A stretch of 55,476 bases of DNA from Candidatus Thioglobus sp. (GTDB lineage Bacteria; Pseudomonadota; Gammaproteobacteria; PS1; Pseudothioglobaceae), in contig JAOMMB010000005.1 of the NCBI GenBank assembly GCA_028352435.1, positions 1 through 55,476 on the forward strand. Reading direction: 5' to 3'. The notes below the pieces were generated by a model that worked only from the letters and a program-made list of their open reading frames with translations, was not told the origin of the DNA and did no database searches. Positions 1,727 to 26,116 of this stretch are shown here, piece by piece. The translations under genes were made by a program, and so were the position numbers. Every line of letters starts with the position of its first letter. Position 1 is the stretch's first letter.

Positions 1727-1748
1727 ACTAATTTAATAAATTTTTAAG

Positions 1749-2323: not shown

Positions 2324-2354
2324 TATGTGCTTATTGAGTTTGTTATTTAAGTTT

Positions 2355-5476: not shown

Positions 5477-5491
5477 AATTAAATTAGCTTA

Positions 5492-5899
5492 TTATTGGCA
5501 ATCTTGGCACAAGCCATATAAATATAAACAATGATCAGTTAACTGAAAGCCATGTTTGGTGGCAATGTCATGCTGATGCTGCTCAATGACTTCATCATTA
5601 AATTCATCAATTTTTCCACATTTAACACATACCAAATGATCATGATGCTCCGTATTGGATAACTCATAGACACTTTGACCATTATCAAAATTAAGCTTAT
5701 GAATCATACTTGCCTCTTCAAACTGGGTAAGCACTCGATAGATAGTTGCCACGCCGACTTCCTCACCCTGCATGACTAATGCACGATAAATATCTTCAGC
5801 ACTCATATGGTGATTCTCACTTTTTTCTAAAATCTCCAGAATCTTAAGTCTTGGTAATGTAACTTTTAGACCTGCAGTTTTTAAATCTTGGGCGTCCAT
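5492..5899 (-). CDS. fur: Ferric uptake regulator Fur
   Basis: 135-residue metal-dependent repressor. The N-terminal winged helix (LKVTLPRLKILEIL to GVATIYRVLTQFEEA) is nearly canonical for Fur, and the dimerisation domain has the HHDHLVCVKCGK metal site with C91/C94 and a second pair C131/C134. YELSNTEHHDHL and HCLYLYGLC favour Fur over Zur. A Shine-Dalgarno AAGGA lies eight bases before the ATG. It is divergent from bamE, a common gammaproteobacterial arrangement, and is followed 15 bases on by znuB, so a zinc-sensing role cannot be wholly excluded. Confidence 0.93.
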   Translation of the reverse strand: MDAQDLKTAGLKVTLPRLKILEILEKSENHHMSAEDIYRALVMQGEEVGVATIYRVLTQFEEASMIHKLNFDNGQSVYELSNTEHHDHLVCVKCGKIDEFNDEVIEQHQHDIATKHGFQLTDHCLYLYGLCQDCQ

Positions 5900-5962
5900 A
5901 TTCGAATCCTTGAGGTAAAATCAGAAAAATATTTCTTAATCATTTTAATCAATTAATTACAA

Positions 5963-11038: not shown

Positions 11039-12022
11039 ATGATAGATCCATTATTTACCAGTAACACTCAATTTGAACAAAATTTCTATCAAGGCTTAGA
11101 CGCCATGCTTGAATATAATGAGCCTGGCGTGTTTATTTTAGTATTGGCCAACGCTTTGGCTGATGAAAAACTATGGCGCCAACTCAAGCCAAAGCTATCA
11201 GACAAATTCGAACAACTTAAAGCTACGAAAATAAGAGGATCAGCTGATGACATTGCAGTTTTCGATCAGTTAAAAAAAATAGATTTTTCCGATCTTGATA
11301 TTGTTAAATATAAGCAGATTGGTGGGTTTGAATTACAATATAACCCGCTTCGCGCTTTACGTACTCAGCGAATGTCAAATGCTAAAACCAAAGGTATGAG
11401 TGAAGATTTTAATGAGAGTGAATTTCACTTTAATAAAGATTTCTTACAAAAAGAGTTGTTTTTTAAAGGCCAGCTTTTCTCTAAAGACATTTCACTTTTT
11501 TATAATAAATTTCCTTTTGCAAAATGCCATGGCCTTGTCGTTGTTGAGGCAGATAAAAACCATCCACAACTTCTCACTCCGCAGCTTCATCAATTTGCCT
11601 GGATGATGGCAAATGCTGTCGGGCTAAATATTAAAGGCTTCACCTTGGCTTATAACTCTTATGGTGCCTATGCATCGGTGAATCATTTTCACCTGCAATG
11701 TTTTATTAGAGAAAACCCGCTACCCATTGAAAATGATGAAAAATATCCTTTGATTAACCATTGGTTTAACTCGATGGGTGACGCTTGGGAATTTATTGAA
11801 AGCTTGCATCGTGACGAACAACCTTATCATCTAATTTATCGAGATCAAGCTGTTTTATGTGTGGTTCGCCAGCGTCAGGATGATTATAAACATGAAAACT
11901 GGACATCTGGCTACGCGTGGTATGAAGCATGTGGTGGCGTTAACACAGCTACTTTAAATGACTATGATTACCTAACAGAAAATGAACTTAAAGCAGAATT
12001 ACTTAAACTTAAAATAACCTAG
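11039..12022 (+). CDS. HIT-superfamily nucleotide phosphorylase/transferase-like protein
   Basis: 327 residues. The C-terminal half has the pattern of the HIT-like galactose-1-phosphate uridylyltransferase/GDP-hexose phosphorylase/Ap4A phosphorylase group: NKFPFAKCHGLVVVE, then YNSYGAYASVNHFHLQCF, where H216, H218 and Q220 form the HxHxQ nucleotidyl-transfer motif. The N-terminal 100 residues are not recognised. Such enzymes act on nucleoside-diphosphate sugars or dinucleoside polyphosphates through a histidine-nucleotidyl intermediate; the substrate here cannot be told. It stands alone, after the ahcY terminator and the inverted repeat and 121 bases before glyQ. Confidence 0.65.
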   Translation: MIDPLFTSNTQFEQNFYQGLDAMLEYNEPGVFILVLANALADEKLWRQLKPKLSDKFEQLKATKIRGSADDIAVFDQLKKIDFSDLDIVKYKQIGGFELQYNPLRALRTQRMSNAKTKGMSEDFNESEFHFNKDFLQKELFFKGQLFSKDISLFYNKFPFAKCHGLVVVEADKNHPQLLTPQLHQFAWMMANAVGLNIKGFTLAYNSYGAYASVNHFHLQCFIRENPLPIENDEKYPLINHWFNSMGDAWEFIESLHRDEQPYHLIYRDQAVLCVVRQRQDDYKHENWTSGYAWYEACGGVNTATLNDYDYLTENELKAELLKLKIT

Positions 12023-12143
12023 TTTAGTTTTTTAGTATTTCACAATCCCTATCAAGGTTTATCTATTGATAAAAGCCCAATCTAATAGCGCTTGATGCGG
12101 TAAAATTTTTGTAATTTTTTAGACTAATTTCAACCGACTTATT

Positions 12144-13043
12144 ATGTCAATTTCAGATTTAGATGCAAGCGCATCGTTTCAAAATTTAATCTTAAAACTA
12201 CAAACTTTTTGGGCCTCAAAAGGCTGTACATTATTGCAACCTTTTGATATGGAGATGGGCGCAGGCACCTTCCATCCGGCTACTTTTTTAAGAGCTGTTG
12301 GTCCGGAACCTTGGAAAGCGGCTTATGTGCAACCTTCGCGCCGCCCTACTGATGGACGTTATGGTGAAAATCCAAATCGTCTTCAGCATTATTACCAATT
12401 TCAAGTTATTCTTAAACCGTCTCCTAAAGATATTCAAGATTTGTATTTAGAATCTTTAAGTGAGATTGGTATTGATTTAAGTAAGCATGATGTGCGTTTT
12501 GTTGAAGACAATTGGGAATCTCCAACATTGGGCGCTTGGGGTTTAGGCTGGGAGATTTGGCTGAACGGCATGGAAGTTTCTCAATTTACTTATTTTCAAC
12601 AAGTCGGCGGTCTAGCTTGCAAGCCAGTATCTGGTGAGCTAACTTATGGCTTGGAGCGTCTTGCTATGTATCTTCAGGGTGTTGACAGCGTATTTGATTT
12701 GGTTTGGACTGAGGGTGTTAGTTATGGTGATGTTTTCCATCAGAATGAAGTTGAGCAATCGACTTATAATTTTGAAATTGCTGATACCGATGTATTGTTT
12801 AAGCAATTTGACGAAGCTGAGTCAATGAATGAGCAGCTAATTGAAAAAGCTCTGCCCTACCCAGCTTATGAACAAGTGATGAAAGCCTCTCATTTATTTA
12901 ACTTGCTTGATGCACGTCATGCTATCAGTGTGACAGACCGTGCAAGATTCATTCGCAGGGTGCGTGCTATGAGTCAAAAGGTAGCGCAAACTTACTTTGA
13001 TTCACGAAAAGCTTTAGGCTTTCCAATGGTTCAAGACTCTTAA
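12144..13043 (+). CDS. glyQ: Glycyl-tRNA synthetase alpha subunit
   Basis: Catalytic subunit of the alpha2beta2 bacterial GlyRS. 299 residues, normal. The sequence is highly conserved: [27 protein letters not shown] at the N-terminus, [26 protein letters not shown] (motif 2 region), and [16 protein letters not shown] (motif 3). glyS, coding the beta subunit needed for tRNA recognition, normally follows at once but is absent; a YqaA-family gene comes six bases later. I saw no T-box in the 121-base leader. Confidence 0.97.
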
Positions 13044-13049: not shown

Positions 13050-13622
13050 ATGCAGATTTTTTCTAGAATTTACCAAAAAACTCTGGACTGGGCGCAAAGT
13101 AAGTTTGCTATTTACTGGCTATCAATTATTAGCTTTTTAGAATCTTCAATCCTGCCTTATCCACCGCCTGATGTTTTATTAGCGCCAATGGCACTAAGGC
13201 GTCCTAACAAAGCTTATCAATTTGCTTTGATTACAACCCTATTTTCAGTGTTAGGAGGTCTTGCTGGGTATTTGTTGGGCGATGTGTTGCTTGACTTTTT
13301 ACTAACTGCTGAGCTAATCAAGCCAGATGCTATTACATCGGTTAAAGTATTTTTTGATCAATATGGTATTTGGGTTATTGGTGTGGCAGCTTTTAGCCCC
13401 ATCCCTTATAAATTGGCTACTATTACTGCGGGCAGTATGGCGATGCCACTATTGCCTTTTATTTTGATTTCGTTAATCGCAAGAGGTGCGCGTTATTATT
13501 TAATAGCTGGTTTGGTCAAAACTTACGGCGATCAATGCGATCAATGGTTAAAAAAATACATTGATCGTTTAGGTTATGGTTTAATTGTTATTGTTATTTT
13601 TGGAGCTTTGTATGTTAGGTAA
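13050..13622 (+). CDS. yqaA: YqaA-family (DedA/VTT-like) membrane protein
   Basis: 190 residues, four or five membrane helices. It matches the YqaA branch of the DedA/SNARE-associated superfamily: FLESSILPYPPPDVLLAPMAL, a glycine-rich second helix (GGLAGYLLGDVL), and the reentrant-loop motif FSPIPYKLATITAG. DedA-type proteins are implicated in lipid scrambling and membrane homeostasis; the role of YqaA is not established. It follows glyQ by six bases and its 3' end overlaps the next lipoprotein gene by 11 bases. In many gammaproteobacteria yqaA lies beside nlpD, consistent with the neighbour here. Confidence 0.85.
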   Translation: MQIFSRIYQKTLDWAQSKFAIYWLSIISFLESSILPYPPPDVLLAPMALRRPNKAYQFALITTLFSVLGGLAGYLLGDVLLDFLLTAELIKPDAITSVKVFFDQYGIWVIGVAAFSPIPYKLATITAGSMAMPLLPFILISLIARGARYYLIAGLVKTYGDQCDQWLKKYIDRLGYGLIVIVIFGALYVR

Positions 13623-14178
13623 ATGGTTGAGTGTTGTCTTGCTAGTATCACTCAGTGGATGCTATTCTTCATCGCCTAAACAGGCTATTATTGTTGTTGA
13701 AAAATCTAGTCATTTAGAAAATATTAATCAACAAAACTTACAAGTTGAGCGCTCAACCGAGAAAACTAAAAGAGCAACAGATCAATACGCCTCAAAAGCT
13801 ACAAAAATTAAACCTCGTCAGGCGAATACAAAACAGCTTAATAAATGGCAAATTCCAGTTAATGCCAGTGTGAGCAAAACCTTTTCTAAAAATCATCAAG
13901 GGTTAACTTTTAACACACAAGTAAAGCAAGAGATTCATGCCATTCGTGAGGGTAAAGTTATCTATGTTGGCAATAAAATGAAAAGCCATGGCACTATGAT
14001 TGTTATTCGCCACCCATTAGGGTTTTACAGTACTTACACCCAAAGCCAATCTTTACGGGTTTCTGTTGGCGATAAGATTAAGAAAAACCAAGTTATTGCG
14101 AGCACCAATAGTCATCCGTTTTACTTTGAAATGAAAAAATTCAAACAAACGATTAATCCGCTCAAATACTTAAAATAA
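13612..14178 (+). CDS. nlpD: NlpD-like lipoprotein with degenerate M23/LytM domain
   Basis: 188 residues from the ATG at 13612; an upstream in-frame TTG-type start would destroy the signal peptide. The lipobox LSGC gives lipidated C17. A Ser/Lys/Thr-rich linker leads to a C-terminal LytM domain (about residues 80-185): IHAIREGKVIYVG, GTMIVIRHPLGFYSTYTQ, VSVGDKIKKNQVIA, INPLKYLK. The zinc ligands of active M23 enzymes are lost; LHFEIR is FYFEMK here and the first HxxxD is absent. That is also true of NlpD, which activates amidase AmiC at the septum without cutting peptidoglycan. No LysM domain is present, so it is a shortened form. Confidence 0.75.
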   Translation: MLGKWLSVVLLVSLSGCYSSSPKQAIIVVEKSSHLENINQQNLQVERSTEKTKRATDQYASKATKIKPRQANTKQLNKWQIPVNASVSKTFSKNHQGLTFNTQVKQEIHAIREGKVIYVGNKMKSHGTMIVIRHPLGFYSTYTQSQSLRVSVGDKIKKNQVIASTNSHPFYFEMKKFKQTINPLKYLK

Positions 14179-14195
14179 ACGCTAAAATATTAATT

Positions 14196-15233
14196 ATGAA
14201 TGATTACTTACAAAATATGACACCTAACCAAGTTATTGGTATTTTACTTATTGTTGCGACGGTTGCACATTTGACTCTTGGCTTCGTTTTAAGACAGGTC
14301 AGTAAACACACAAGTAAAACCAAAAATCAGCTTGATGATCATCTGGTTAAGTCTGTTTCCACTCCTCTAAAAACCTTAATTTGGTTTGGCTGGCTCTACT
14401 TTTCTATTGTGGCTTTCGAAGGGCAAATCGAGGCGCTAACTTCGGTCATTGGATATATTAATATCACACCAATATTTATCGTTACCTGGGGCGTTGTTCG
14501 CATGATTTCAGGCATCGAGACTTACCTAGTTGAAGAAGATAATAGTGTTGATAACGACTCAGTGAGATTGTTTTCAAGATTGATCAAAATTTTGATTGTT
14601 ACCGCTATCTTATTAGGCATTGCTCAATTTTTAGGTTTTTCAATTTCAAGCTTACTAACTTTTGGTGGTGTTGGTGGTATTGTAATGGGCTTTGCTGCCA
14701 AGGATATGCTAAGCAATATTTTTGGCGGACTTATGATTCAAATGGATAAGCCTTTTTCTACAGGCGATTGGATTCGCTCTACGCAATTTGAAGGTACCGT
14801 TGAAAAAATTGGCTGGCGCATGACACGTATTCGTACTTTTAGCCTAAATCCAGTCTATATTCCTAACTCAATTTTTGCCTCAATCCCTATTGAAACCCCT
14901 TCGCGCATGACTAATCGTCGAATCAATGAAGTGGTTGGTATTCGTTATGATGATATCAAGCAAATGCCGCTGATTGTTGCAGAAGTTGAAAATATGCTTA
15001 AAGCACATAAAGGTATTAATCAAACTCAGTCTCTGCGTGTGTTTTTTAATTATTTCAACGCTTCATCTATTGATTTTAATATCTACGCCTTTACCAACAC
15101 AACCAGTAAAGATGAATATCAAAAAATTAAGCAAGAAATCTTACTCACTATAGCAAATATTATTGAATCTCACAATGCTGAGATTGCCTTCCCAACACAA
15201 ACATTGCATATCCAGAATAGCTCTACACCTTAG
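14196..15233 (+). CDS. MscS-family small-conductance mechanosensitive channel
   Basis: 345 residues with four hydrophobic helices followed by a cytoplasmic beta domain. The pore helix and its exit are clear: SLLTFGGVGGIVMGFAAKDMLSNIFGG, followed by DKPFSTGDWI, the signature of MscS. These channels open under membrane tension and release osmolytes in hypo-osmotic shock. The extra N-terminal helices resemble the YbdG/YnaI type more than E. coli MscS itself. It is 17 bases after nlpD and 15 before miaB. Confidence 0.92.
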   Translation: MNDYLQNMTPNQVIGILLIVATVAHLTLGFVLRQVSKHTSKTKNQLDDHLVKSVSTPLKTLIWFGWLYFSIVAFEGQIEALTSVIGYINITPIFIVTWGVVRMISGIETYLVEEDNSVDNDSVRLFSRLIKILIVTAILLGIAQFLGFSISSLLTFGGVGGIVMGFAAKDMLSNIFGGLMIQMDKPFSTGDWIRSTQFEGTVEKIGWRMTRIRTFSLNPVYIPNSIFASIPIETPSRMTNRRINEVVGIRYDDIKQMPLIVAEVENMLKAHKGINQTQSLRVFFNYFNASSIDFNIYAFTNTTSKDEYQKIKQEILLTIANIIESHNAEIAFPTQTLHIQNSSTP

Positions 15234-15248
15234 TAGTAAAATTTTATT

Positions 15249-16601
15249 ATGAATAAATTACACATTCGCACCTTTGGATGCCAAATGAACGAGTATGACT
15301 CTGACCAAATGGTTAACGTACTGAAACACTCACACAATTTAGAATTAACCGATAAAGCAGAAGATGCAGATGTATTGCTACTTAACACTTGCTCTATCCG
15401 TGAAAAAGCTCAAGAAAAATTGTTTCATCAATTAGGTCGCTGGAGAAAACTCAAAGTTAGCAATCCTAATTTAGTGATTGGCGTGGGTGGCTGTGTTGCC
15501 TCACAAGAAGGAGAATTAATCCTTAAACGTGCACCTTATGTTGATATTATCTTTGGCCCCCAGACTTTGCACCGCCTGCCAACCATGCTTAATGAGGTAT
15601 TGGGTGACAAAAAAACCAGTATCGACATCTCTTTTCCAGAAATCGAAAAATTTGACCACCTACCCGAGCCTAAGTCAGATGGTGTTAGTGCATTTGTTTC
15701 TATCATGGAAGGTTGTAGTAAGTACTGCACCTTTTGCGTAGTTCCTTATACGCGCGGAGAAGAGGTTTCTCGCCCCTTTAATGATGTTCTTAAGGAAGTG
15801 GGGATACTAGCCAAACAAGGTGTTCGTGAGGTTAATCTATTAGGTCAAAATGTTAATGCTTACCAAGGATTACTGGATGATGGTCAAAGTGCTGACTTGG
15901 CCTTATTGATCAATATTGTCGCGCAAATAGAGGGGATTGATCGTATTCGTTACACCACTTCTCATCCAGTTGAATTTTCAGATTCTTTGATTGAGGTGTA
16001 TTCTGAAGTGCCTGAGCTGGTTTCACATCTGCACTTACCTATTCAAAGTGGTTCTGACAAAATTTTAGGACTCATGAAGCGTGGCCATATGGCTATTGAA
16101 TACAAATCGAAAATTAGGAAATTACGTAAAATTCGACCTGATATTTCTATCTCTAGCGATTTTATTATTGGCTTTCCGGGTGAAAATGATCAAGACTTTG
16201 AAGACACCATGACACTCATCAACGATATTGGTTTTGACAAATCTTTTAGCTTTATCTATTCCGCTAGACCTGGAACACCTGCAGGTAGCTTTGTTGACGA
16301 TGTTGATATGTCAATTAAAAAAGAGCGCCTAGCACGTGTGCAAAAAACTATCGATGAATCAACAGAGGTTATTTCAAAATCTATGGTTGGTAGTGTACAA
16401 AAAGTATTGATTGAGAACGTATCCAAAAAGAGCACTCAAATTCCTGGCGAAACCAGCAGTTTGTTTGGTCGCACAGAAAATATGCGCAATACGCATTTTC
16501 AAGGTGATGAGTCACTTATTGGTCAAATTGTGAATGTCAAAATTACCTCAGCACGTGGTAACTCATTAGTGGGTGAGCTACACCTTCAAAATAACGCTTA
16601 A
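15249..16601 (+). CDS. miaB: tRNA-2-methylthio-N6-dimethylallyladenosine synthase MiaB
   Basis: Radical-SAM methylthiotransferase that adds a methylthio group to i6A37 in tRNA. 450 residues. The N-terminal UPF0004 domain has the cluster cysteines C11, C48 and C82; the radical-SAM motif is C156-x3-C160-x2-C163; a C-terminal TRAM domain follows ([21 protein letters not shown]). It acts after MiaA, whose gene is at 38159 in this window. It heads the miaB-phoH pair also seen in E. coli (miaB-ybeZ-ybeY). Confidence 0.97.
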
Positions 16602-16610
16602 ACAAAATCT

Positions 16611-17528
16611 ATGCACATCTCTCTAGAAATTGATAATTCTGAACAACTGTCCGATATTTGTGGCTCATTTGATCGAAATTTACAAACGATTGCAAAAAGT
16701 CTTGATGTTGAAATTAACAACAAAGGTGGAGAGTTTGTCATTCGTGGCGATAATAAGCACTTAGCTGCTCGAATTTTACAAGATTTGAGCATGCTCAGTA
16801 AAACTCAATCTATTGGTGTGCATGATGTAGAAATGAGCATTAAAGCCTACACTGATGACGACATATCTAGTGAGTCGGTTAACATTAAAACCAAGCGTAA
16901 ATTTATTCATATACGTTCAAAAAATCAACAACATTACGTCAAAGCCATTAAGGAGAAAGATTGTACTTTTGGTATTGGACCTGCTGGCACAGGAAAAACT
17001 TATCTAGCGGTTGCACGCGCCGTTGAAGCACTTGAATGTTCAGATGTAAGACGTATTATACTAGTTCGTCCTGCCGTTGAAGCGGGTGAAAAACTTGGCT
17101 TTCTGCCTGGAGATTTAACCGAAAAAATTGATCCTTACTTGCGTCCAATTTATGACGCTTTGTATGAAATGATGGGCTTTGACAAGGTCAACAAGCTGTT
17201 GGATAAAAATACTATTGAAGTGGCACCCTTAGCTTTTATGCGCGGACGCACACTCAATGAAGCCTTCATTATTTTAGATGAAGCTCAAAACACCACAACC
17301 GAACAAATGAAGATGTTTTTAACACGTATGGGTTTTGGCTCCAAAATGGTGATTACAGGCGACGTTACTCAAATTGATCTTGCTCGACCTAATCAATCAG
17401 GCTTACTTCATGCTATGAAAGTTTTAGAAAGCGAGCCTAAAATTTCTTTTTGTCATTTTCACTCAAGAGATGTGGTTAGACACAAATTAGTACAGCGTAT
17501 TGTTCAGGCTTACGAAATCTTTGAATAA
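16611..17528 (+). CDS. ybeZ: PhoH-like ATPase YbeZ
   Basis: 305 residues, nine bases after miaB. Walker A GPAGTGKTYLAV lies near residue 125, the conserved RPAVEAGEKLGFLPGDL block follows, and Walker B is FIILDEAQNTT. PhoH-family proteins are thought to act in RNA metabolism together with the endoribonuclease YbeY. Here ybeY is not next in line; mnmA overlaps the end of the gene instead, so the standard miaB-ybeZ-ybeY-ybeX-lnt operon is truncated. Confidence 0.94.
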   Translation: MHISLEIDNSEQLSDICGSFDRNLQTIAKSLDVEINNKGGEFVIRGDNKHLAARILQDLSMLSKTQSIGVHDVEMSIKAYTDDDISSESVNIKTKRKFIHIRSKNQQHYVKAIKEKDCTFGIGPAGTGKTYLAVARAVEALECSDVRRIILVRPAVEAGEKLGFLPGDLTEKIDPYLRPIYDALYEMMGFDKVNKLLDKNTIEVAPLAFMRGRTLNEAFIILDEAQNTTTEQMKMFLTRMGFGSKMVITGDVTQIDLARPNQSGLLHAMKVLESEPKISFCHFHSRDVVRHKLVQRIVQAYEIFE

Positions 17529-18606
17529 GCTTGAAAAAATTATTGTTGGCCTATCAGGTGGTGTTGACTCATCTGTTGCAACGCTAATGCTATTAGAGCA
17601 AGGCTATAAAGTAGAAGCTTTGTTTATGAAAAACTGGGATGAAGATGACAAGGATGGTCATTGCACTGCTGAGCAAGATCTATCAGATGCACAAAAAGTA
17701 GCTGACAAACTGGGGGTTAAACTTCATAGTATTAATTTTTCAGCTGATTATTGGGATGATGTCTTTGAGCATTTTTTACAAGAGCACAAGAAAGGTCGAA
17801 CACCTAATCCTGATGTTTTATGTAATCAAAAAATAAAATTTAAAGTTTTTCTTGAGTATGCTCTATCACTAGGTGCTGATAAGATAGCAACTGGACACTA
17901 CGCTAGAATTACTCATGATAATAACAGCTACCAGTTAAAAACAGGCCTAGATGATAATAAAGATCAGAGCTACTTCTTGCATCTTTTAAATCAAGAGCAA
18001 TTAAGTAAAAGCTTATTTCCACTGGGCGAGATTAGCAAAACCAAAGTGCGTGAGTTAGCCAGAAAACACGACTTAATCACTGCTGATAAAAAAGACTCAA
18101 CAGGTATTTGCTTCATCGGAGAGCGTAATTTTTCTGAATTTTTACAGACTTATCTACCCAAACAACAAGGCAACATTGTTGATGAGCAGGGAAAATTTAT
18201 CAAACATCATCAAGGTTTGGCTTTTTATACCATTGGCCAAAGAAAAGGTTTGAAAATTGGGGGTGGCTTTAGCGATTCTCCCGCGCCTTGGTTTGTAGCC
18301 GATAAACGCATTGATTCTAATGAAATTTTGGTAGTCCAAGGTGATCATAAGCTTTTGTATCACAATACCCTTACTACTTCGAATTTACATTGGATTGATA
18401 CTCAACCAGAGATACCTTTTAGTTGTGTGGCAAAAATTCGATACCGCCAAGACTCACAAGAATGTAGCGTTGTGAAGTATAGTGATTCACTTAAAGTTAT
18501 TTTTAAAAATCCACAAAGAGCGATCACGCCAGGACAATCTATTGTGTTTTATCAAGAAGATACCTGTTTAGGTGGTGGCATTATTGAGCAAAGAAGCAAT
18601 GAATAA
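17521..18606 (+). CDS. mnmA: tRNA-specific 2-thiouridylase MnmA
   Basis: Thiolates U34 at the wobble position of tRNAs for Lys, Glu and Gln. The TTG at 17521 gives LNKLEKIIVGLSGGVDSSVA, matching the usual N-terminus; another TTG at 17500 would add seven residues. The PP-loop SGGVDS is at 12-17. The catalytic cysteines are in PNPDVLCNQKIKF and STGICFIGERNF. 361 residues is normal. It overlaps phoH by eight bases and hflD by eight bases, so translation of the three is coupled. Confidence 0.95.
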   Translation: MNKLEKIIVGLSGGVDSSVATLMLLEQGYKVEALFMKNWDEDDKDGHCTAEQDLSDAQKVADKLGVKLHSINFSADYWDDVFEHFLQEHKKGRTPNPDVLCNQKIKFKVFLEYALSLGADKIATGHYARITHDNNSYQLKTGLDDNKDQSYFLHLLNQEQLSKSLFPLGEISKTKVRELARKHDLITADKKDSTGICFIGERNFSEFLQTYLPKQQGNIVDEQGKFIKHHQGLAFYTIGQRKGLKIGGGFSDSPAPWFVADKRIDSNEILVVQGDHKLLYHNTLTTSNLHWIDTQPEIPFSCVAKIRYRQDSQECSVVKYSDSLKVIFKNPQRAITPGQSIVFYQEDTCLGGGIIEQRSNE

Positions 18607-19237
18607 ATTAGAAAACCAAACCTTAGCCTTAGCGGGAATCTTACAAAGTGCTGCACTCGTTGATCAACTTGCCTCAAAGGGTGTTTGCCATAGTGAATGC
18701 TCTGGCGCAAGCCTAGGCAGTATTGTTAATACAAGCTCAAACGTGGTTGATATCTTCGACTCTAAAGCTGAGCTATTTGTTGGCATGTCAACTTTAAAAG
18801 CTGTACTTAGTAAAAAGACTAAGTCTATGCAAACCATTACCTTCTACGCTTTATCACTCATCAACCTTGAAAAGAAATTAATGAAAAATCCAGCTTTATT
18901 AGATACAATTACAGCTGAGATTAACACCTTTAATAAACAAACATTCTTTGAAATTACTCATACTAACTCCATTGCGCGTTTAGGTGAACTATACAAATCA
19001 ACCTTAGGCGGGCTAAATCCAAGAATTATGGTTAAAGGTGAGCAGCTGTATTTATCTAATGATCGCACCGCTAATCATATTAGAGCATTGCTATTATCTG
19101 GCATACGAGCAGCATCTCTATGGAAATCCCAAGGTGGAAAGACCTGGCATTTACTCATTAATAAGCGCAAAATATTAAAGACAATAGAGGCAATAGAAAA
19201 ATCTGCTAGCCCATCAGATAATCTGGCACAGTCTTAG
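18599..19237 (+). CDS. hflD: HflD homologue (lysogenisation regulator family)
   Basis: 212 residues from the ATG at 18599. The pattern TLALAGILQSAALVDQLASKG, then a central LINLEKKL helix, and LLLSGIRAASLWKSQGGKTWHLLINKR at the C-terminus match HflD. E. coli HflD is a peripheral inner-membrane protein that promotes degradation of phage lambda CII; its housekeeping role is unclear. mnmA-hflD is the normal gammaproteobacterial pairing. purB, the usual next gene, is replaced by rpsT. Confidence 0.9.
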   Translation: MNKLENQTLALAGILQSAALVDQLASKGVCHSECSGASLGSIVNTSSNVVDIFDSKAELFVGMSTLKAVLSKKTKSMQTITFYALSLINLEKKLMKNPALLDTITAEINTFNKQTFFEITHTNSIARLGELYKSTLGGLNPRIMVKGEQLYLSNDRTANHIRALLLSGIRAASLWKSQGGKTWHLLINKRKILKTIEAIEKSASPSDNLAQS

Positions 19238-19258
19238 TAATTTAATTTTCAATTTCAC

Positions 19259-19287
19259 TAGACTTTTGCTCACTAAGACTTTATAAT
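19259..19287 (+). promoter_or_regulatory. Promoter of rpsT
   Basis: TAGACT (19259-19264), a 17-base spacer and TATAAT (19282-19287) lie in the 84-base gap between hflD and rpsT. Transcription would start near 19294, leaving a leader of about 28 bases. Confidence 0.65.
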
Positions 19288-19321
19288 TACGCCTTTAAAT
19301 ATTTAACTCTTATATAACACG

Positions 19322-19582
19322 ATGGCTAATTCAGCAGGTTCAAAAAAACGCGCAAGACAAGCAACTAAACGCAACAAGCACAATTCTCAAATCCGCGCTA
19401 AAGTTCGTACTTTCATCAAGAAAGTATCTTACGCATTAGATGCTGGTAATAAAGAAGAAGCACAGGGTGGTTATGTTGCTATGCAAAAAATGATTGATCA
19501 ATCAGTTAGCAAAGGCCTTATGCATAAGAACCAAGCAGCTAGAAAGAAAGCTCGTATTAATGTACAAATCAAAGCTCTGTAA
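19322..19582 (+). CDS. rpsT: 30S ribosomal protein S20
   Basis: 86 residues, very basic, ANSAGSKKRARQATKRNKHNSQIRAKVRT at the start: unmistakable S20, a three-helix bundle binding 16S rRNA helices 9 and 44. It has its own promoter and is followed by a strong terminator. Its 3' end from about 19536 is repeated in decayed form 6 kb downstream at 25527, marking the borders of an inserted island. Confidence 0.98.
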   Translation: MANSAGSKKRARQATKRNKHNSQIRAKVRTFIKKVSYALDAGNKEEAQGGYVAMQKMIDQSVSKGLMHKNQAARKKARINVQIKAL

Positions 19583-19662
19583 ATAATAATTTAACATTGC
19601 TATAATGAAGCCCTCAATTGAGGGCTTTTTTAATGCGTAAACAAAAATGATTAATGATAACG
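19536..19662 (+). repeat. Left flank repeat: rpsT tail, terminator, first codons
   Basis: The segment covers the last codons of rpsT, TAA, a GCTATAAT motif, a terminator hairpin, AATGC, and ATGATTAATGATAACG encoding MINDN. A second copy is at 25527-25649. Hand alignment from 19570 gives about 74 matches in 93 columns with one gap; similarity is weaker but recognisable upstream to CAGC. The intact rpsT end is in this copy. Confidence 0.85.
19607..19632 (+). terminator. Intrinsic terminator after rpsT
   Basis: AAGCCCTC (19608-19615) pairs with GAGGGCTT (19620-19627) and six T residues follow the stem's GGGC. A TATAAT motif lies just before it (19601-19606) and is kept in the second repeat copy, so a promoter whose transcript begins with this hairpin is also possible. 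Confidence 0.85.
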
Positions 19663-19886
19663 CTAGATCGATCAATCGACTCAATCCAGAAAAACTATTA
19701 CTGACCAAATGGACTGCATTAAATCCAGAAAATAAAGAACTACACTTTATTGTCACTAAGTTATTACGTAATGATAATGAAAAAATTATTGGCTGTAAGC
19801 TTGAAGCGGTGATCAATAAAAATAGTTATGAAATCGACTGGCGAGATCTCAAAGACTCATCAACCTGGATAACTGGCTGGAATTAA
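19647..19886 (+). CDS. Small TIGR02450-family protein
   Basis: 79 residues. The core NRLNPEKLLLTKWTALNPENKELHFIVTK and the tryptophans near the C-terminus (WRDLKDSSTWITGW) match the small tryptophan-rich TIGR02450 family, of unknown function and often found near photolyase and LitR-type genes. The first residues MINDN are identical to the start of the smr product at 25634, within the duplicated flank, so the initiation region appears to have been borrowed from smr. It is the leftmost island gene and convergent with the DUF6279 gene. Confidence 0.75.
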   Translation: MINDNARSINRLNPEKLLLTKWTALNPENKELHFIVTKLLRNDNEKIIGCKLEAVINKNSYEIDWRDLKDSSTWITGWN

Positions 19887-19906
19887 CCATCAACTAAGCT
19901 TTCCGG

Positions 19907-20794
19907 TTATCGATTTTCTTTCAACTCCGTAAAAATCTGAATATAGTCATCTGCCTTGTTGGTGAAATGCTGTTTTTGATCCGGTGTAGAAATATGTATT
20001 AACTTTACAGTCAACAAGCCTATTGCCTGTATATTTTTATTACGTATATCGGCTAATATATTAATTCGCTCGACATTAAACTGATTAAAAAAGATATTTA
20101 GTTGATCTGATTTAACTTCGATAGTATCTTCAGCTTTTAAAATCTCTTGGATATTTTCCTGCCAATACTTTCTAAGCTTTAATCTGAGATGTGCACTGCT
20201 ATAAATCATAGTTGCAGTTTTTTGTATCTCATTTTTTTGCTGCTTAGTTAAATCCCCTAACCAGCTTTCAAAATTATCCAGTAATCTCTCTTTAAATTCT
20301 TCAGCAATCTCATCTTTATCTAGATCAACATTTTCCTTATAAAATTTATCATTCTTTTTATTAATACTTACAAACAATTCTTCAAGCTGGCTATTATTTA
20401 GTAATGGTAATAAAACTACCATTTCTTCATTTAATTTTTCAGCTAGTAACTGCCATAATGACTCTATAGTGACAATAGTATGAGAAACTTGCTCTTCGGT
20501 TAAGTCAAGACCAAAGTCGCGCTTAAGACCTCTTAACAGGTCAGCATATTGAATGAGCTGAGTATTACGATGCCAATTTATGAGACTCATGGTTTGTTGC
20601 TCTACACGCTTTTCTAAAATACCATCCAACGACACCATACCCTCAACATAAGTCGGAATTATGTATTCAAGATTATTGTAGGTAAACTTAAAGGTGCAGG
20701 CGCTACTAAATACTATGAGAGAAGCTATAAAAATAAATTTTGAATAATATTTAATCAAAACTAACTTCTCTTTATTTGCATTCAATTCGTGCAA
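19907..20794 (-). CDS. DUF6279-type lipoprotein
   Basis: 295 residues. A hydrophobic segment at about 17-32 ends in SSACTFKFTYNNLEYIIP; the lipid-attachment cysteine would be about residue 33, preceded by an unusually long N-terminus, so the true start may be an internal codon. The block TYNNLEYIIPTYVEGMVSLDG and LINWHRNTQLIQYADLLRGL match DUF6279 lipoproteins, predicted helical periplasmic proteins of unknown function. The 5' end overlaps folE by 23 bases, so it is the last gene of the merR-gpx-folE operon. Confidence 0.7.
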   Translation of the reverse strand: MHELNANKEKLVLIKYYSKFIFIASLIVFSSACTFKFTYNNLEYIIPTYVEGMVSLDGILEKRVEQQTMSLINWHRNTQLIQYADLLRGLKRDFGLDLTEEQVSHTIVTIESLWQLLAEKLNEEMVVLLPLLNNSQLEELFVSINKKNDKFYKENVDLDKDEIAEEFKERLLDNFESWLGDLTKQQKNEIQKTATMIYSSAHLRLKLRKYWQENIQEILKAEDTIEVKSDQLNIFFNQFNVERINILADIRNKNIQAIGLLTVKLIHISTPDQKQHFTNKADDYIQIFTELKENR

Positions 20795-21452
20795 GTGACA
20801 TAAATTCAGTACGGGTTATTGGATCCTTTTTAAATGATCCACCTAGTTTGCTTGTTATGGTGCTAGAGCCAATATCTTCAACACCACGTGACTTGACACA
20901 AAAATGTTGTGCATCTATTAAAACTGCAATATGCTCTGTTTGTAATATATAAGACAATGTGTGCCAAATTTGCTCTGTCAGACGTTCTTGTATTTGTGGT
21001 CTTTTACAAAAGTATTCAACTATACGATTCATTTTTGATAATCCTAATACCTTTTTATGTGGAATATAACCAACAGTAGCAAGCCCATCAATTACAACAA
21101 AGTGATGCTCACAATTAGATTGTGCATTAATACCACGCTCTACAATCATTTCATCGTATTGCATCTTGTTCAATACCGCTGTGCATTTTGGAAATGCTTC
21201 GTAGTCCAAACCCCAAAATATTTCATTGACATACATCTTTGCAACTCTTTTAGGTGTGTCGATTAAACTATCATCTGTTAAATCCAAACCTAATGTTTTC
21301 ATTATGTTGGTGAAATCAGCTTCAATGCTATCAATTTTTTCAGTTCTTGAAAGGTTCATTTCTTCAATAGGTGTTTCTACTCCCTGCTTGACTAAATGCT
21401 TATGTATTTCTAAACCAAGAAATGGGTCTGTTTTTGTCTTGTTATATGACAT
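20772..21452 (-). CDS. folE: GTP cyclohydrolase I
   Basis: Converts GTP to 7,8-dihydroneopterin triphosphate, the entry to folate and pterin synthesis. 226 residues, as in E. coli. Zinc and catalytic residues are visible in NCEHHFVVIDG and in HFCVKSRGVEDIGS. GYIPHKKVLGLSKMNRIV is the conserved substrate block. In light-response clusters folE is thought to supply the folate antenna of photolyases or pterins; the operon here (merR-gpx-folE-DUF6279) fits such a cluster. It may therefore be an accessory copy; another folE or folE2 elsewhere would test that. Confidence 0.96.
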   Translation of the reverse strand: MSYNKTKTDPFLGLEIHKHLVKQGVETPIEEMNLSRTEKIDSIEADFTNIMKTLGLDLTDDSLIDTPKRVAKMYVNEIFWGLDYEAFPKCTAVLNKMQYDEMIVERGINAQSNCEHHFVVIDGLATVGYIPHKKVLGLSKMNRIVEYFCKRPQIQERLTEQIWHTLSYILQTEHIAVLIDAQHFCVKSRGVEDIGSSTITSKLGGSFKKDPITRTEFMSLARIECK

Positions 21453-21472
21453 ATTTAGTTTGAAGTAAAGGG

Positions 21473-22024
21473 TTAAAGCTTTACTTTCTTTAGCTCCTTC
21501 TTAATTACACTAATAACTTGTTCATCCATTGGATCAATTGAACTTCTGTAACTCTTAACAAATTCACCGTCACCGCCTATTAAGTACTTATGAAAATTCC
21601 ATTGTGGATAAACTCCTGAAACCTTGGCCAGTTTTTTATACAATGGATCAGCATTTTGCTTGGTTACTCGCGTCTTACTAAACATTGGGAAATCAACGCC
21701 ATAAGTCATCTCACAAAAAGCCTTGATTTGTTTTTCAGTACCAGGCTCCTGGTTTCCAAAATCATTTGAAGGAAAGCCTAATACCACTAACCCACTTTCC
21801 TTGTATTGTTTATATAGCTTCTCAAGGGAATCGTATTGCTCTGTATAAGCACATCTACTGGCTGTATTCACTACAAGCAGAACCTTTCCTTGATACTCTT
21901 CACATAGATTTACCTGTTCACTTTTATTTAAAGTTTTGACATTAAAATCAAGTAACTCCGAACATACTTTTGCATTCACTTGTAAATTGAATAACAATAC
22001 TGCTACTAATAAAATAATTTTCAT
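21473..22024 (-). CDS. Secreted glutathione peroxidase-family protein
   Basis: 183 residues with an N-terminal signal peptide (MKIILLVAVLLFNLQVNA). The thioredoxin fold of the Gpx family is clear: LLVVNTASRCAYTEQYDSLEKLYKQY with peroxidatic C58 (not selenocysteine), then FPSNDFGNQEPG and WNFHKYLI, which hold the catalytic Gln and Trp. It should reduce hydroperoxides in the periplasm, probably using thioredoxin-like donors. It lies 32 bases after the MerR regulator and 20 before folE, pointing to photo-oxidative protection. Confidence 0.92.
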   Translation of the reverse strand: MKIILLVAVLLFNLQVNAKVCSELLDFNVKTLNKSEQVNLCEEYQGKVLLVVNTASRCAYTEQYDSLEKLYKQYKESGLVVLGFPSNDFGNQEPGTEKQIKAFCEMTYGVDFPMFSKTRVTKQNADPLYKKLAKVSGVYPQWNFHKYLIGGDGEFVKSYRSSIDPMDEQVISVIKKELKKVKL

Positions 22025-22056
22025 TTATGCCTCATAATTAATTAATATCACCCGCA

Positions 22057-22920
22057 TTAAAGCGGCACTTGATCGAAAGAAGTAATTTTTTTAACGCCAG
22101 ATGGTAAGTTACGCATACGTTTTATACCCTCGCCTCCAGACCATAAATCTACATTTTTTGGAATAGATTCGCGTAATTCAACTAAATGACTATGAATATT
22201 TTTATACTGATAGGCGCCACTGAATGTTATTCCTAATATATCAACATTTAGACGATCAACTGCCAAAATAATTTGATCCATTGGCACTTCACCACCAAGG
22301 TTGATGACGTTAACACCTCGATCTGCGAGCAAAGCGGAGAACATTAATAAGCTAAGCGTATGCTCTTCACCAGGCAAGGTTGCAAGTAAAACACAAGGTT
22401 TAGTTGAAACTTTTTGCATTAAAGAAATCTTATTATTAATAAAACGTGTTAGCACCTCAGATAGCATTCTTTCTTCAAAAATTTGTAATTGCCCTTTTGC
22501 CCAGCGCTCACCAACCGTCTGTAATAGCGGTGTTACAGTCTGTGTAATGAATGTCTGCATATCTTGTTGCTGATAAATTTTAGATAGAGCTTCTTCCAAT
22601 TCAGTGGCATCGCTAGTTTGCAAGATATTTAACAAATTCTCTATTAAGCCACTGATTGATGAATTTGAATAAAGACTAGCCTCCAATAAACCAAGGTCAG
22701 AATCATTCAATGCTACAACTTTTCCAGGTCGAAAACCTTGATCAAGCAAGCGCCGAATGCATTGAAGACGGATTAACTGATCTTCAGGATAAGTACGCTC
22801 TCCCTTATTGTTACGAAGTGGTTCCGGAAAGCCGTAGCGACGCTCCCAGATACGTAACGTATCACGGGCTATTCCACTATCACGCTCAACGGTACCAATA
22901 GATAAACACTTAAAACTCAT
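22057..22920 (-). CDS. MerR-family regulator with cobalamin-binding domain (LitR/CarH-like)
   Basis: 287 residues. An N-terminal MerR winged helix (SIGTVERDSGIARDTLRIWERRYGF, about 5-70) is followed by a helical bundle and a B12-binding Rossmann domain. CarH/LitR photoreceptors hold adenosylcobalamin with W-x9-EH and E-x-H-x-x-G. Here W140 and E150 are kept but the His is R151, and the second motif is E185-x-H187-x-x-S190: the lower-ligand His is present and the Gly replaced by Ser. A cofactor role is likely, but its light chemistry may differ. It heads a four-gene operon and is divergent from the CIA30 operon across 142 bases containing two dyads. Confidence 0.9.
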   Translation of the reverse strand: MSFKCLSIGTVERDSGIARDTLRIWERRYGFPEPLRNNKGERTYPEDQLIRLQCIRRLLDQGFRPGKVVALNDSDLGLLEASLYSNSSISGLIENLLNILQTSDATELEEALSKIYQQQDMQTFITQTVTPLLQTVGERWAKGQLQIFEERMLSEVLTRFINNKISLMQKVSTKPCVLLATLPGEEHTLSLLMFSALLADRGVNVINLGGEVPMDQIILAVDRLNVDILGITFSGAYQYKNIHSHLVELRESIPKNVDLWSGGEGIKRMRNLPSGVKKITSFDQVPL

Positions 22921-22966
22921 AAATTGACTGTGTCTTATATTAACAATAAATCAAATTATAATACTA

Positions 22967-22981
22967 TTTGTCCTAGACAAA
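22967..22981. promoter_or_regulatory. Perfect dyad TTTGTC-CTA-GACAAA, candidate MerR-regulator operator
   Basis: Six-base perfect arms with a three-base centre lie midway between divergent merR and CIA30. The right arm overlaps the -35 (TAGACA) of the rightward promoter. On the other strand it falls in the spacer upstream of a TATAAT at 22957-22962 region. One bound dimer could therefore control both operons. Confidence 0.6.
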
Positions 22982-23014
22982 AATAAAAATATCCATATAA
23001 TAAGTACATGGATA
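22974..23014 (+). promoter_or_regulatory. Rightward island promoter with second dyad
   Basis: TAGACA (22974-22979), a 16-base spacer and TATAAT (22996-23001) form a good promoter for the CIA30-SDR-DUF3429-flavin reductase operon. A second dyad, TATCCAT (22990-22996) and ATGGATA (23008-23014), brackets the -10 box, a position suited to repression. Confidence 0.6.
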
Positions 23015-23062
23015 ACTAAATTTAAATAGACAACACTAACTTACAAAATAAAACTACTATTT

Positions 23063-23692
23063 ATGATATTACAAATATTCGCCCGGAGTCTTCAACTACC
23101 TAAATTGATTAAGAACCTTCTATTGAGTACTATAATTTTCGCTAGTGGTATAAACAATAATGCAGTCGCTAAAAATATGAACCTTACCGTTATAGATAAC
23201 CGAAACAATAATAATCTAACTTCTAACCTTGGTACAAAATGGCAATTGGTAACGGATACTATCATGGGTGGACTTTCTCAAGGGCAACTATCTTTAGATG
23301 AGTACAAAGGTAAAAATTGCTTACGTATGCGTGGTAATGTAACAACAGATAATAATGGGGGCTTTGTTCAGATAGTACTACCCTTATCTAAAAATAATAC
23401 TTTTAACGCTTCAGACTATTCTGGTGTTGAATTAGAAGTTGCAGGCAATGATGAAATTTACAATATACACTTTAGAACGAATGAGTTATGGTTTCCATGG
23501 CAATCATATCGCTATAGTTTTAAAGCAGAAAGTGCCTGGAAAAAATATCGCATTCCTTTTAAAGAATTAGACAAATATAAAACTTTTAATGAGTTTGCTC
23601 AGGACAAAATTAAGCGTATTGGTCTGGTGGCAATAGGACGTGAATTTCAAGCAGACTTATGTTTAGCAGATATTAGGTTTTACAATGACTAA
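23063..23692 (+). CDS. Secreted CIA30-domain protein
   Basis: 209 residues with a hydrophobic N-terminal segment (about 17-36), then a CIA30/galactose-binding-like beta domain: WQLVTDTIMGGLSQG, LRMRGNVTTDNNGGFVQI, YSGVELEVAGNDEIYNIHFRT, WKKYRIPF and KRIGLVAIGR. The family is named for a mitochondrial complex I assembly factor; bacterial members in light-response clusters have no assigned reaction. First gene of the rightward island operon, overlapping the SDR gene by eight bases. Confidence 0.8.
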   Translation: MILQIFARSLQLPKLIKNLLLSTIIFASGINNNAVAKNMNLTVIDNRNNNNLTSNLGTKWQLVTDTIMGGLSQGQLSLDEYKGKNCLRMRGNVTTDNNGGFVQIVLPLSKNNTFNASDYSGVELEVAGNDEIYNIHFRTNELWFPWQSYRYSFKAESAWKKYRIPFKELDKYKTFNEFAQDKIKRIGLVAIGREFQADLCLADIRFYND

Positions 23693-24434
23693 GTCTGTAG
23701 CAATTGTTATTGGTGCTGGAAGTGGTCTCGGTAGTGCAATGATTGGTCAGTGGCAAAAAGATAGCGCTATTGGGCAAGTTTTTGCCATTAGTAGAGGGCA
23801 AATATCTAGCCAAGAGCGAATCCTGTCATCATCTGTTCATAATATACAATGTGATTATAGCGAAGCGTCAATTATCAAAGCCTGTGAAATGATTAAGCTA
23901 CTAATAAAGCAAAACCAGTTAGGAACGATAAGTCGTATTTGTATTTGCAATGGTGTTTTACATAACAACTCTATTTGGCCAGAAAAACGTATAGAGGAGC
24001 TAAATACTAGTAACCTTTTGGAGGTTTTCAGCATTAATAGCGTAATCCCCATACTCTGGTTAAAATCACTAATTGACTTAGTTAAATCAAAAGATAATTG
24101 TATTATTACGGTATTTAATGCAAGGATTGGAAGTATCGGAGATAACCACTCTGGTGGATGGTATAGCTATCGCGCGTCAAAAGCAGCATTAAACATGCTA
24201 TTGAAAACTGCTGCCATCGAATATGCCAGACGAGCTAAAAATGTAAAACTTATATCCTTTCACCCTGGAACCACCGATACAGAATTAACCAAACCCTTTC
24301 AAGGATCAGTAAAAAAAGAAAATCTATTTACACCTGAATTTGTTGCAGAACACCTTTCAAAAATTATGAATCAACAAGATATAGATGGTGAATTATCATT
24401 TATTGACTGGGAGAATAAAGCCATTGTTTGGTAA
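23685..24434 (+). CDS. Short-chain dehydrogenase/reductase (C-factor-like)
   Basis: 249 residues. The nucleotide-binding motif GAGSGLG is at about 10-16, an NNx-like CNG at about 87, and the catalytic pair Y162 and K166 lies in YSYRASKAAL. PGTTDTELTKPFQ and VAEHLSKIM at the C-terminus resemble CsgA/C-factor SDRs. NAD(P)-dependent; the substrate is unknown. SDRs of this group recur beside photolyase and LitR-type regulators. The start overlaps CIA30 and the end overlaps the DUF3429 gene, so the operon is tightly coupled. Confidence 0.88.
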   Translation: MTKSVAIVIGAGSGLGSAMIGQWQKDSAIGQVFAISRGQISSQERILSSSVHNIQCDYSEASIIKACEMIKLLIKQNQLGTISRICICNGVLHNNSIWPEKRIEELNTSNLLEVFSINSVIPILWLKSLIDLVKSKDNCIITVFNARIGSIGDNHSGGWYSYRASKAALNMLLKTAAIEYARRAKNVKLISFHPGTTDTELTKPFQGSVKKENLFTPEFVAEHLSKIMNQQDIDGELSFIDWENKAIVW

Positions 24435-24861
24435 GGAACAAATAGCAAAATTGCTTGGTTATTCTGGACTGATTCCATTTATTGTATTTACGATTGGTAG
24501 TTGGATACAAATACCAATGGTATCTGATAGTCCCTATATTCTAATTACTTATTCAGCCGTAATATTATCTTTTATGGGTGCCATCCATTGGGGTATAGCT
24601 ATGTCAAACCCTAAAGAAGACAATTTCCGATATTTTATTATCAGTGTCATGCCTGCACTAATTGCATGGGCATCCCTTTTAGTGCCTGAAAGTTATGCAA
24701 TCATTCTATTGGTAATCGGTTTTATCGCACTCATCATGTATGATTGGGCTGTAGAAAAGTCATTAAGACTTCCTTCTTGGTATTTACCCATGAGAAAAAA
24801 GTTAACGACTGTCGTCATCCTATGCTTATGTATGACTCAACTATCATTCGTAATTCATTAA
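24424..24861 (+). CDS. DUF3429 membrane protein
   Basis: About 145 residues from a TTG at 24424 (LFGKEQIAKLLGYSGLIPF), chosen because longer starts run deep into the SDR gene. Four or five membrane helices; the LLGYSGLIPFI start, FMGAIHWGIAM and ISVMPALIAWASLL blocks match DUF3429, a family of inner-membrane proteins of unknown function common in photolyase/LitR clusters. It overlaps the SDR gene by 11 bases. Confidence 0.78.
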   Translation: MFGKEQIAKLLGYSGLIPFIVFTIGSWIQIPMVSDSPYILITYSAVILSFMGAIHWGIAMSNPKEDNFRYFIISVMPALIAWASLLVPESYAIILLVIGFIALIMYDWAVEKSLRLPSWYLPMRKKLTTVVILCLCMTQLSFVIH

Positions 24862-24873
24862 ATTGGACTATTT

Positions 24874-25518
24874 ATGCAGCTAAAAACAAAACAGATTGAA
24901 GCCTTAGATGATCGATATCGAGCATTATTTATAAATGCATTGAGTGGCTTCAAAAGTGCCAATATGATTGCTAGCTGTGATCAAAAGAAAAATACTAACA
25001 TTGCCATCTTTACTTCTGTTTTTCATATCGGCTCAAATCCGCCATTGTTAGGCATGATATCTCGACCACACTCAGTTTCCAGAGATACTTTGGAAAATAT
25101 ACTAGAAACTCAACATTACACAATCAACCATGCTAATGAATCAATCTGCGAAAAGGCACATCAAACATCTGCTCGATATGATAAAAAAACATCAGAATTT
25201 AAAGCAACAGGTTTAAGCGAAGAATGGCATGATAACTTCCCTGCACCTTTTGTAAAGGAAAGCCGAATTCAATTAGGCATGGAGCTAAGAGAGCATCATC
25301 AACTAGCGTCTAATAACACCATTATAATTATTGGTGAGATAACTTATATCAATATCAAAGATGACATTGTTCATCAGGATGGATATGTCGATATAGAAAA
25401 ATCTGGTAGTATTGCTGTGAGTAGCATTGATAGCTATCATCGTACTGATCTCATTACCCAGCTCAGCTATGCTAAACCAGAAAAGCTATCTGAACAGATT
25501 AATCATCGTAAGAAATAA
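24874..25518 (+). CDS. Flavin reductase-like FMN-binding protein
   Basis: 214 residues. The split-barrel flavin reductase domain is suggested by NALSGFKSANMIASCDQKKNTNIAIFTSVFHIGSNPPLLGMISRP, followed by the typical SRDTLENIL and HYTINH blocks. Members bind FMN and may reduce flavin or act on unknown substrates; in light-response islands the role is undetermined. It starts 12 bases after the DUF3429 gene and is the last gene of the rightward operon, ending eight bases before the right flank repeat. Confidence 0.75.
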   Translation: MQLKTKQIEALDDRYRALFINALSGFKSANMIASCDQKKNTNIAIFTSVFHIGSNPPLLGMISRPHSVSRDTLENILETQHYTINHANESICEKAHQTSARYDKKTSEFKATGLSEEWHDNFPAPFVKESRIQLGMELREHHQLASNNTIIIIGEITYINIKDDIVHQDGYVDIEKSGSIAVSSIDSYHRTDLITQLSYAKPEKLSEQINHRKK

Positions 25519-25526
25519 CTGGCCAT

Positions 25527-25649
25527 CAGCAAATAAAGCGTATCTTAGTCTGTCAACCAAAGCTTTGTAAACAGCCAGTTAACATCGCTATAATTAAACT
25601 CTCATTTGAGGGTTTTTTAATGCATAGAAAAATATGATCAACGACAACG
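25527..25649 (+). repeat. Right flank repeat: decayed rpsT tail and smr start
   Basis: Second copy of the 19536-19662 segment. It still reads AAAGCTTTGTAA (K-A-L-stop as in S20), GTTAACATCGCTATAAT, the hairpin ACTCTC/GAGGGT with six T (one G-T pair), AATGC, and the start codon region of smr. Upstream the rpsT codons are frameshifted and no longer code. This is the border of the island and the authentic upstream region of smr; TTGTAA (25563-25568) with TATAAT (25589-25594 region) may serve as its promoter. Confidence 0.85.
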
Positions 25650-26116
25650 ACAAACAAATGTTTAGAGACAGTGTTGATGCTAATGCGCCTATCGATAAAG
25701 ACGGCGTAAACCCAAAAAACAATCAAGTCAAAAAAGCTGCATTCACGGCCTATAGCTATATCACTGAAGCCCGCTTGGATGGGTCACAAACTGTAGCCTA
25801 TGCCAAAAATGGCTTATCGACAAAAATTATTAAAAAAATGAAGCGCGGCGATATTGACCATGCGCCTTCATTAGATCTTCATGGGCTAACAACTGTTGAA
25901 GCATGTGAATCTATGAGTGAGTTCATGTATCGCCATCAGCATGAAAATTTTATTCATATTATTCATGGCAAGGGCTATCACTCTGGAAATGGCATGAGTA
26001 TCCTTAAAACCCAAGTTGTGAGCTTTTTAAATCAACACCCTCAAGTGCTGGCATTTAACTCTTGTCCTGATAAAGATGGTGGCGCTGGTGCAATCTTCGC
26101 CTTACTTAAGCAATAA
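25634..26116 (+). CDS. Smr-domain endonuclease-like protein
   Basis: 160 residues. The N-terminus MINDNDKQMFRDSVDANAPI is typical of YdaL/SmrA-like proteins, and the C-terminal Smr domain has its three signatures: LDLHGLT, HGKGYHSGNGMSILK and GGAGAIFALL. Smr domains resemble the C-terminus of MutS2 and cut nucleic acids; bacterial stand-alone members are linked to ribosome-collision rescue or DNA repair. The gene originally followed the rpsT terminator. xseA begins three bases after its stop. Confidence 0.9.
   Translation: MINDNDKQMFRDSVDANAPIDKDGVNPKNNQVKKAAFTAYSYITEARLDGSQTVAYAKNGLSTKIIKKMKRGDIDHAPSLDLHGLTTVEACESMSEFMYRHQHENFIHIIHGKGYHSGNGMSILKTQVVSFLNQHPQVLAFNSCPDKDGGAGAIFALLKQ

Follow-up and report, generated by a model that had tools for sequence, protein, structure and literature searches.

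The window analysed here is a stretch of 55,476 nucleotides from a MAG of Candidatus Thioglobus sp. (G000, 67% complete). In this stretch the host genes rpsT and smr are separated by an island of nine genes, and the island is enclosed by two direct copies of a short sequence that spans the junction between the two host genes (Table 1). The nine gene identifications of an earlier reading made from the sequence only were all upheld, and so was the absence of an integrase that it reported: the open reading frames of the island correspond to nine metabolic, regulatory or unknown genes.

Table 1. Features of the rpsT-smr locus in the window
Feature	Position	Strand	Basis
rpsT (ribosomal protein S20), left host gene	19322..19582	+	ORF; locus shared by every relative fetched
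Repeat copy 1: rpsT stop, -10 box TGCTATAAT (19598-19606), terminator hairpin (19608-19627), smr start and first five codons	19568..19662	+	
TIGR02450/DUF2389 Trp-rich protein, N-terminus MINDN smr-derived	19647..19886	+	
DUF6279 protein (exact start codon uncertain)	19907..20794	-	ORF and domain match
folE, GTP cyclohydrolase I	20772..21452	-	
gpx, glutathione peroxidase	21473..22024	-	
litR: MerR HTH and two-part B12-binding region; Wx9EH altered to Wx9ER	22057..22920	-	
Candidate operator TTTGTC-N3-GACAAA between the divergent operons; sole exact copy in the genome assembly	22967..22981	.	
CIA30-domain protein	23063..23692	+	
Short-chain dehydrogenase/reductase (SDR)	23685..24434	+	
DUF3429 membrane protein	24424..24861	+	
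Flavin-reductase-like protein	24874..25518	+	
Repeat copy 2: rpsT stop relic, -10 box, weakened terminator hairpin (25596-25615), smr start	25555..25649	+	
smr, right host gene; first ~40 codons within the tract exchanged with the G001 lineage	25634..26116	+	

The order of the genes and their overlaps suggest that two operons diverge from the region 22921-23062, one formed by litR, gpx, folE and the DUF6279 gene that reads leftward, and the other by the genes encoding the CIA30, SDR, DUF3429 and flavin-reductase-like proteins that reads rightward. The TIGR02450 gene is fused in frame to the smr start, given that its product begins with MINDNARSINRLNPEKLL, in which MINDN is as in smr; several TIGR02450 proteins of another genus of the family start directly at M-N-x-I-N/S-x-KKLL/I, so the first residues of the island protein are those that the smr part of the junction contributes, and the gene is presumably driven by the captured smr promoter. 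Another genus of the family has isolated TIGR02450 genes in 12 of its genomes (L091-L102); five loci (L110-L114) were inspected, and none of the remaining island genes was detected in the neighbourhood. Base composition had been proposed as a way to recognise a foreign origin, and this check gave no such sign: the GC content of the island (34.4%) is at the low end but inside the range of window segments of equal length (34.3-39.1%), and its GC3 resembles that of the flanks; composition is therefore uninformative.

The distance between rpsT and smr was compared across the family in the 52 genomes that place the two on a single contig. Fifty of these show a gap of 33-324 bp, and a big insert is present in G009 (6049 bp) and G000 (6054 bp) alone. 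Except for G009 and G001, the fifteen relatives that were fetched have a plain rpsT-smr junction. G009 (97% complete) carries the complete island with both repeats and an identical gene order, and in G001 a decaying island is split over two contigs, one with repeat copy 1 and the other with copy 2; since the same structure is found in G009 and G001, a rearrangement specific to one assembly was ruled out. The nearest relative and sister of G000, G008, has no island and a single copy of the repeat, on a contig that continues through the junction. Its DNA is ~97% identical to the window up to both edges of the island, and the alignment consists of two blocks (window 13062-19662 with G008 positions 1-6604, and window 25555-50851 with G008 from position 6509) that overlap by ~95 bp in the G008 coordinates, as expected for one site that was duplicated around an insert. 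The relatives thus show that the island lies within a 93 bp duplication between rpsT and smr, as the sequence-only reading had proposed, the unoccupied relatives being single-copy and island-free. Regarding individual genes, the flavin reductase gene was found in only G000, G009 and G001 among 83 genomes of the family, the CIA30 gene in only the same three within the genus, and the island-type LitR, in a search of the family, in only G000 and G009.

The two repeat copies (~93-95 bp) are 79% identical (E 1e-16), and the core alignment scores 54, whereas the best of 2000 shuffles reached 19; this bears out the flank duplication of about 80% identity that had been noticed in the window, and no third copy exists in the whole genome. 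In each copy the rpsT stop is followed by a conserved TGCTATAAT box, then by a terminator hairpin, and finally by the codons for MINDN with which smr begins; in copy 2 of G000 the -10 box has the variant sequence CGCTATAAT. The same reading placed the left edge of the second copy at 25527, with a decayed rpsT tail, and this part did not stand: the likeness of 25519-25556 to the rpsT tail is close to chance (p ~0.19 in G000, 0.64 in G009 and 0.22 in G001), so that the duplicated part of rpsT is about the last three codons and the stop. The hairpin of copy 2 is weaker (-7.6 kcal/mol in G000 and -4.6 in G009, against -13.0; G001 is similarly weak, -4.4), and it has been kept in G000 and G009 through paired changes (GCCCTC/GAGGGC to ACTCTC/GAGGGT and ACTCTT/AAGGGT); given this retention it may still act as terminator of the right-hand operon. 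In G001, the smr start codon that is ATG in the other genomes is ACG (L066, G001:C76), and an in-frame upstream ATG inside the repeat (ATGCATAATTAT) may substitute as the start.

The history of the island was followed by means of the divergence at fourfold sites and tree topology tests. Between G000 and G009, divergence is alike in the flank (25.8%) and in the island (25.0%), which indicates common vertical descent; the island is vertically inherited in these two genomes. Between G000 and G001, the divergence of the island (32.9%) is far below that of the flanks (57.8%), and the flank tree places G001 as sister to the unoccupied G002 (support 100). From about the end of rpsT, the identity of G001 to G000 exceeds that to G002, and it returns to background near codon 40 of smr; the left breakpoint is imprecise because rpsT is highly conserved. 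In the approximately unbiased (AU) test, the 272 nt of flank inside this tract (rpsT end, repeat 1 and smr codons 1-40) reject the grouping of G001 with G002 (p=0.003), as do the smr codons 1-40 alone (p=0.007), and 3.8 kb outside the tract reject the opposite topology (p=0.0002). The conflict is confined to the island and its immediate flanks, at a locus shared by carriers and non-carriers with conserved flanks, from which it follows that the island and both repeats travelled together in a homologous-recombination tract that extends approximately from the rpsT end to smr codon 40. These data show that the island moved between the G000/G009 clade and the G001 lineage by homologous recombination in the rpsT and smr flanks, and give support to the horizontal movement that had been suggested for it. 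A purely vertical history, in which the island would be ancestral in the genus and lost many times without any transfer, agrees with the descent seen in G000 and G009 and with the fact that losses do happen (the empty junction of G008, the decay in G001); nevertheless, the low G000-G001 divergence of the island and the restriction of the AU conflict to the tract make it extremely improbable.

The copy 2 sequences of G000, G009 and G001 cluster together (support 97), hence one founding duplication suffices. The island of G001 lacks an internal segment that extends from about residue 150 of gpx as far as the first codons of litR (L109:4190-4540, G001:C82); litR and most of gpx are deleted, and the start region of litR and one half of the operator described below are decayed.

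The idea of a cassette that moves by itself found no support, since the island spread through rpsT and smr homology and no copy of it was found at another genomic site in the family. Carriage by phages or plasmids was also discarded: no island was found on viral contigs, and among the matches listed the plasmids carry only distant relatives of LitR (<=38% identity). Outside the family, the best LitR (57% identity) belongs to an uncultured gammaproteobacterium (L078), at a locus where gpx is the sole shared gene; accordingly, no donor of the whole gene set was found outside the family.

Along the window, identity to G008 drops to 80% at 43501-44000, to 80-91% at 45001-46500 and to 75% or unaligned sequence at 50501-51550, versus a background of 95-98%; these segments are possible further exchange tracts. 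At 12001-13000, G000 and G009 are 97-99.8% identical, with ~91% around, which could reflect a recent exchange or a very conserved gene.

Taking these results together, we consider it probable that an additive island, set in the 93 bp rpsT-smr duplication and carrying stress genes under the control of LitR, has been exchanged by homologous recombination and inherited vertically in between. According to this model, a founding insertion between rpsT and smr would have created the duplication, and the TIGR02450 gene would have taken over the smr upstream region and first five codons; afterwards the island would have passed from lineage to lineage by homologous recombination in rpsT and smr, with vertical inheritance between these events. 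G008 would carry the unoccupied allele, and G001 would be losing the island. The order of events would then be the founding insertion, the exchange of alleles via housekeeping flanks, and a decay in which regulator and operator are lost together, and the locus provides a case, at the level of single bases, of a regulated set of stress genes that small genomes gain and lose with no mobility genes involved.

Several mechanisms were weighed for the founding insertion. DDE transposons produce target duplications of about 2-14 bp and have terminal inverted repeats; a target-site duplication of this kind was ruled out given that 93 bp is too long, and no pair of inverted repeats was found at the two ends of the island. 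The direct repeats straddle the 3' end of the host gene rpsT, spanning its stop, a position that brings to mind attachment-site integration: a since-lost integrase would have acted at the 3' end of rpsT, the repeats would be attL and attR, and later movement would have occurred by homologous recombination only. The location at the end of a short host gene and the restoration of stop and terminator on the left side are as this mechanism predicts, but neither an integrase nor a remnant of one is present in the island, the repeat continues past the terminator into smr codon 5, and no other element lies between rpsT and smr in the 52 family genomes, so we regard it as unlikely. This lack of any other large insert in the 52 genomes also led us to reject the idea of the rpsT-smr junction as a hotspot. 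A Campbell insertion of a circle bearing the gene set together with the rpsT-smr junction of a relative (or, in a variant, insertion after the junction had undergone a short duplication) yields exactly one junction copy per side, and copy 2, which has 79% identity with copy 1 and 74-84% with the empty junction of most relatives, could stem from a different lineage; however, no plasmid or circular source was found and copy 2 clusters with no particular relative, and this route is possible, at somewhat less than even chance. It is highly unlikely that the rpsT terminator/promoter junction acts as a genuine docking site for cassettes inserted by an unrecognised recombination route; if it did, each insertion would duplicate a terminator, a promoter and a start codon that are ready for use, and the captured gene would be expressed at once with rpsT and smr undisturbed.

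The empty junction of G008 admits two origins, exchange with an unoccupied allele, or removal of the island through recombination between its two repeats. For the latter, it should be considered that the identity of the flanks to G000 stays at ~97% as far as the junction, uninterrupted by any divergent tract, and that the left part of the junction resembles copy 1 and the smr side copy 2; on the other hand, the hairpin loop and the left part have the appearance of the ancestral, unoccupied junction, and the crossover would be confined to a match of 5 bp (ATGAT). Removal through the repeats is thus a serious candidate, only slightly short of an even chance.

Turning to the regulator, LitR includes the domains PF13411, PF02607 and PF02310, that is, a MerR-type HTH and a two-part B12-binding region, and its best structural relatives are CarH of Thermus (E about 1e-20). 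It probably works as a LitR/CarH-type repressor, judging from this resemblance. The motif Wx9EH is described as present without exception in those CarH homologues that were studied, and its absence in CarA accompanies an action independent of B12 (PMC8156234). In the island LitR, the W and E of this CarH-defining motif are kept and the His is replaced by Arg (G000) or Lys (G009); the His is retained in the homologues of loci L078-L087. The equivalents of Trp131, Glu141 and His177 of CarH are retained, and His132, the light-state ligand in Thermus CarH (PMC10442372), is an Ala. In the ExHx2G motif, G000 has EEHTLS, with the Gly lost, and G009 EEHTLG, with the Gly kept. Photosensing through AdoCbl by this LitR appears doubtful because the His of Wx9EH is missing. 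That LitR is a true AdoCbl light sensor, and the island a strict light-response regulon, would agree with the CarH structural relatives, the three retained residues and the gene types in common with known light regulons; the broken Wx9EH motif, the Ala at position 132 and the Gly missing from ExHx2G in G000 make this reading rather unlikely.

Between litR and the CIA30 gene lies the inverted repeat TTTGTCCTAGACAAA, just upstream of a TATAAT box that reads into litR and that could be its promoter. One exact TTTGTC-N3-GACAAA is present in each of G000 and G009, both at the island; as G000 is only 67% complete, further sites could sit in the missing third of that genome, and G009, at 97%, also has one. 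Exact sites were observed upstream of litR in L078, L079, L080, L081, L082, L083 and L085, and forms with a single mismatch in L084; the motif is absent in L086 and L087. In 140 kb of homologue loci there are 9 exact sites, versus 0 in shuffles. In G001, which has no litR, one half-site is lost. It is strongly suggested by these comparisons that LitR would bind TTTGTC-N3-GACAAA over its own promoter and control the island alone, and strong comparative evidence thus points to this motif as an autoregulatory operator. The motif core was not found in the relevant papers of the literature searched. TTTGTC-N3-GACAAA is a candidate operator for a largely gpx-linked group of LitR regulators with B12 domains in Gamma- and Betaproteobacteria, and being a simple candidate operator it makes their regulons directly searchable.

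With respect to function, what is known of the protein families suggests that the peroxidase, the entry enzyme of pterin/folate synthesis, the flavin reductase and the SDR would answer photo-oxidative or lipid-peroxide stress, and that LitR would be a repressor until a stress signal relieves the repression; we infer that defence against such stress is the likeliest role. Judged by the gene content, a defence against light would be plausible, although the photoreceptor motif of CarH is altered in this regulator.

Compared with known systems, LitR shares with class I LitR/CarH the MerR HTH and the four-helix and Rossmann B12-binding domains, and differs from it in the Wx9ER or Wx9EK motif and in the Ala that replaces the light-state ligand His132. 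The operator of CarH consists of 11 bp direct repeats (PMC8156234), whereas the candidate here is an inverted repeat. In the class II LitR regulons of Pseudomonas (PplR, PmlR), folE is light-induced and a short-chain dehydrogenase gene is in the cluster (PMC9758184); folE, a short-chain dehydrogenase and a MerR-type repressor are likewise together in the island. In contrast, class II LitR proteins have the four-helix domain only, with no Rossmann B12 domain, and bind TGTACA-N12-TGTACA, and the LitR of the island, having the Rossmann domain and another candidate operator, falls outside this class; photolyase, cryptochrome and ufaM, present in class II regulons (PMC9758184), are missing from the island. 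Flexible genomic islands of aquatic prokaryotes are swapped via homologous recombination (Lopez-Perez et al. 2014, PMC4033161), and the island resembles them in being a cluster that lacks its own mobility genes and is exchanged between related lineages via conserved genes on either side. It differs in that a single small stress-gene island is either present or absent, instead of one cell-surface cluster replacing another, and in that the 93 bp duplication supplies a promoter and a start codon.

The relatives of LitR often adjoin gpx, and in Betaproteobacteria (L081-L084, L086) the litR homologues face a glutathione peroxidase gene. The neighbourhood of L084 includes folE2, a CMAS-type methyltransferase, DUF1365, amine oxidase and DUF3833, and the set also contains chalcone_3 and MFS_2. 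In the genus of the window, a second and distant LitR-like regulator, likewise of the MerR/B12 type, adjoins a photolyase gene (L041, L119-L122: G008:C29, G002:C1, G009:C4, G001:C123). It differs from the island in that the regulator is only 22-24% identical and present in carriers and non-carriers; the island-type operator is absent at this locus, so a shared operator was discarded. In G008, the neighbour of this LitR-photolyase pair resembles by eye the DUF523-DUF1722 protein RudS.
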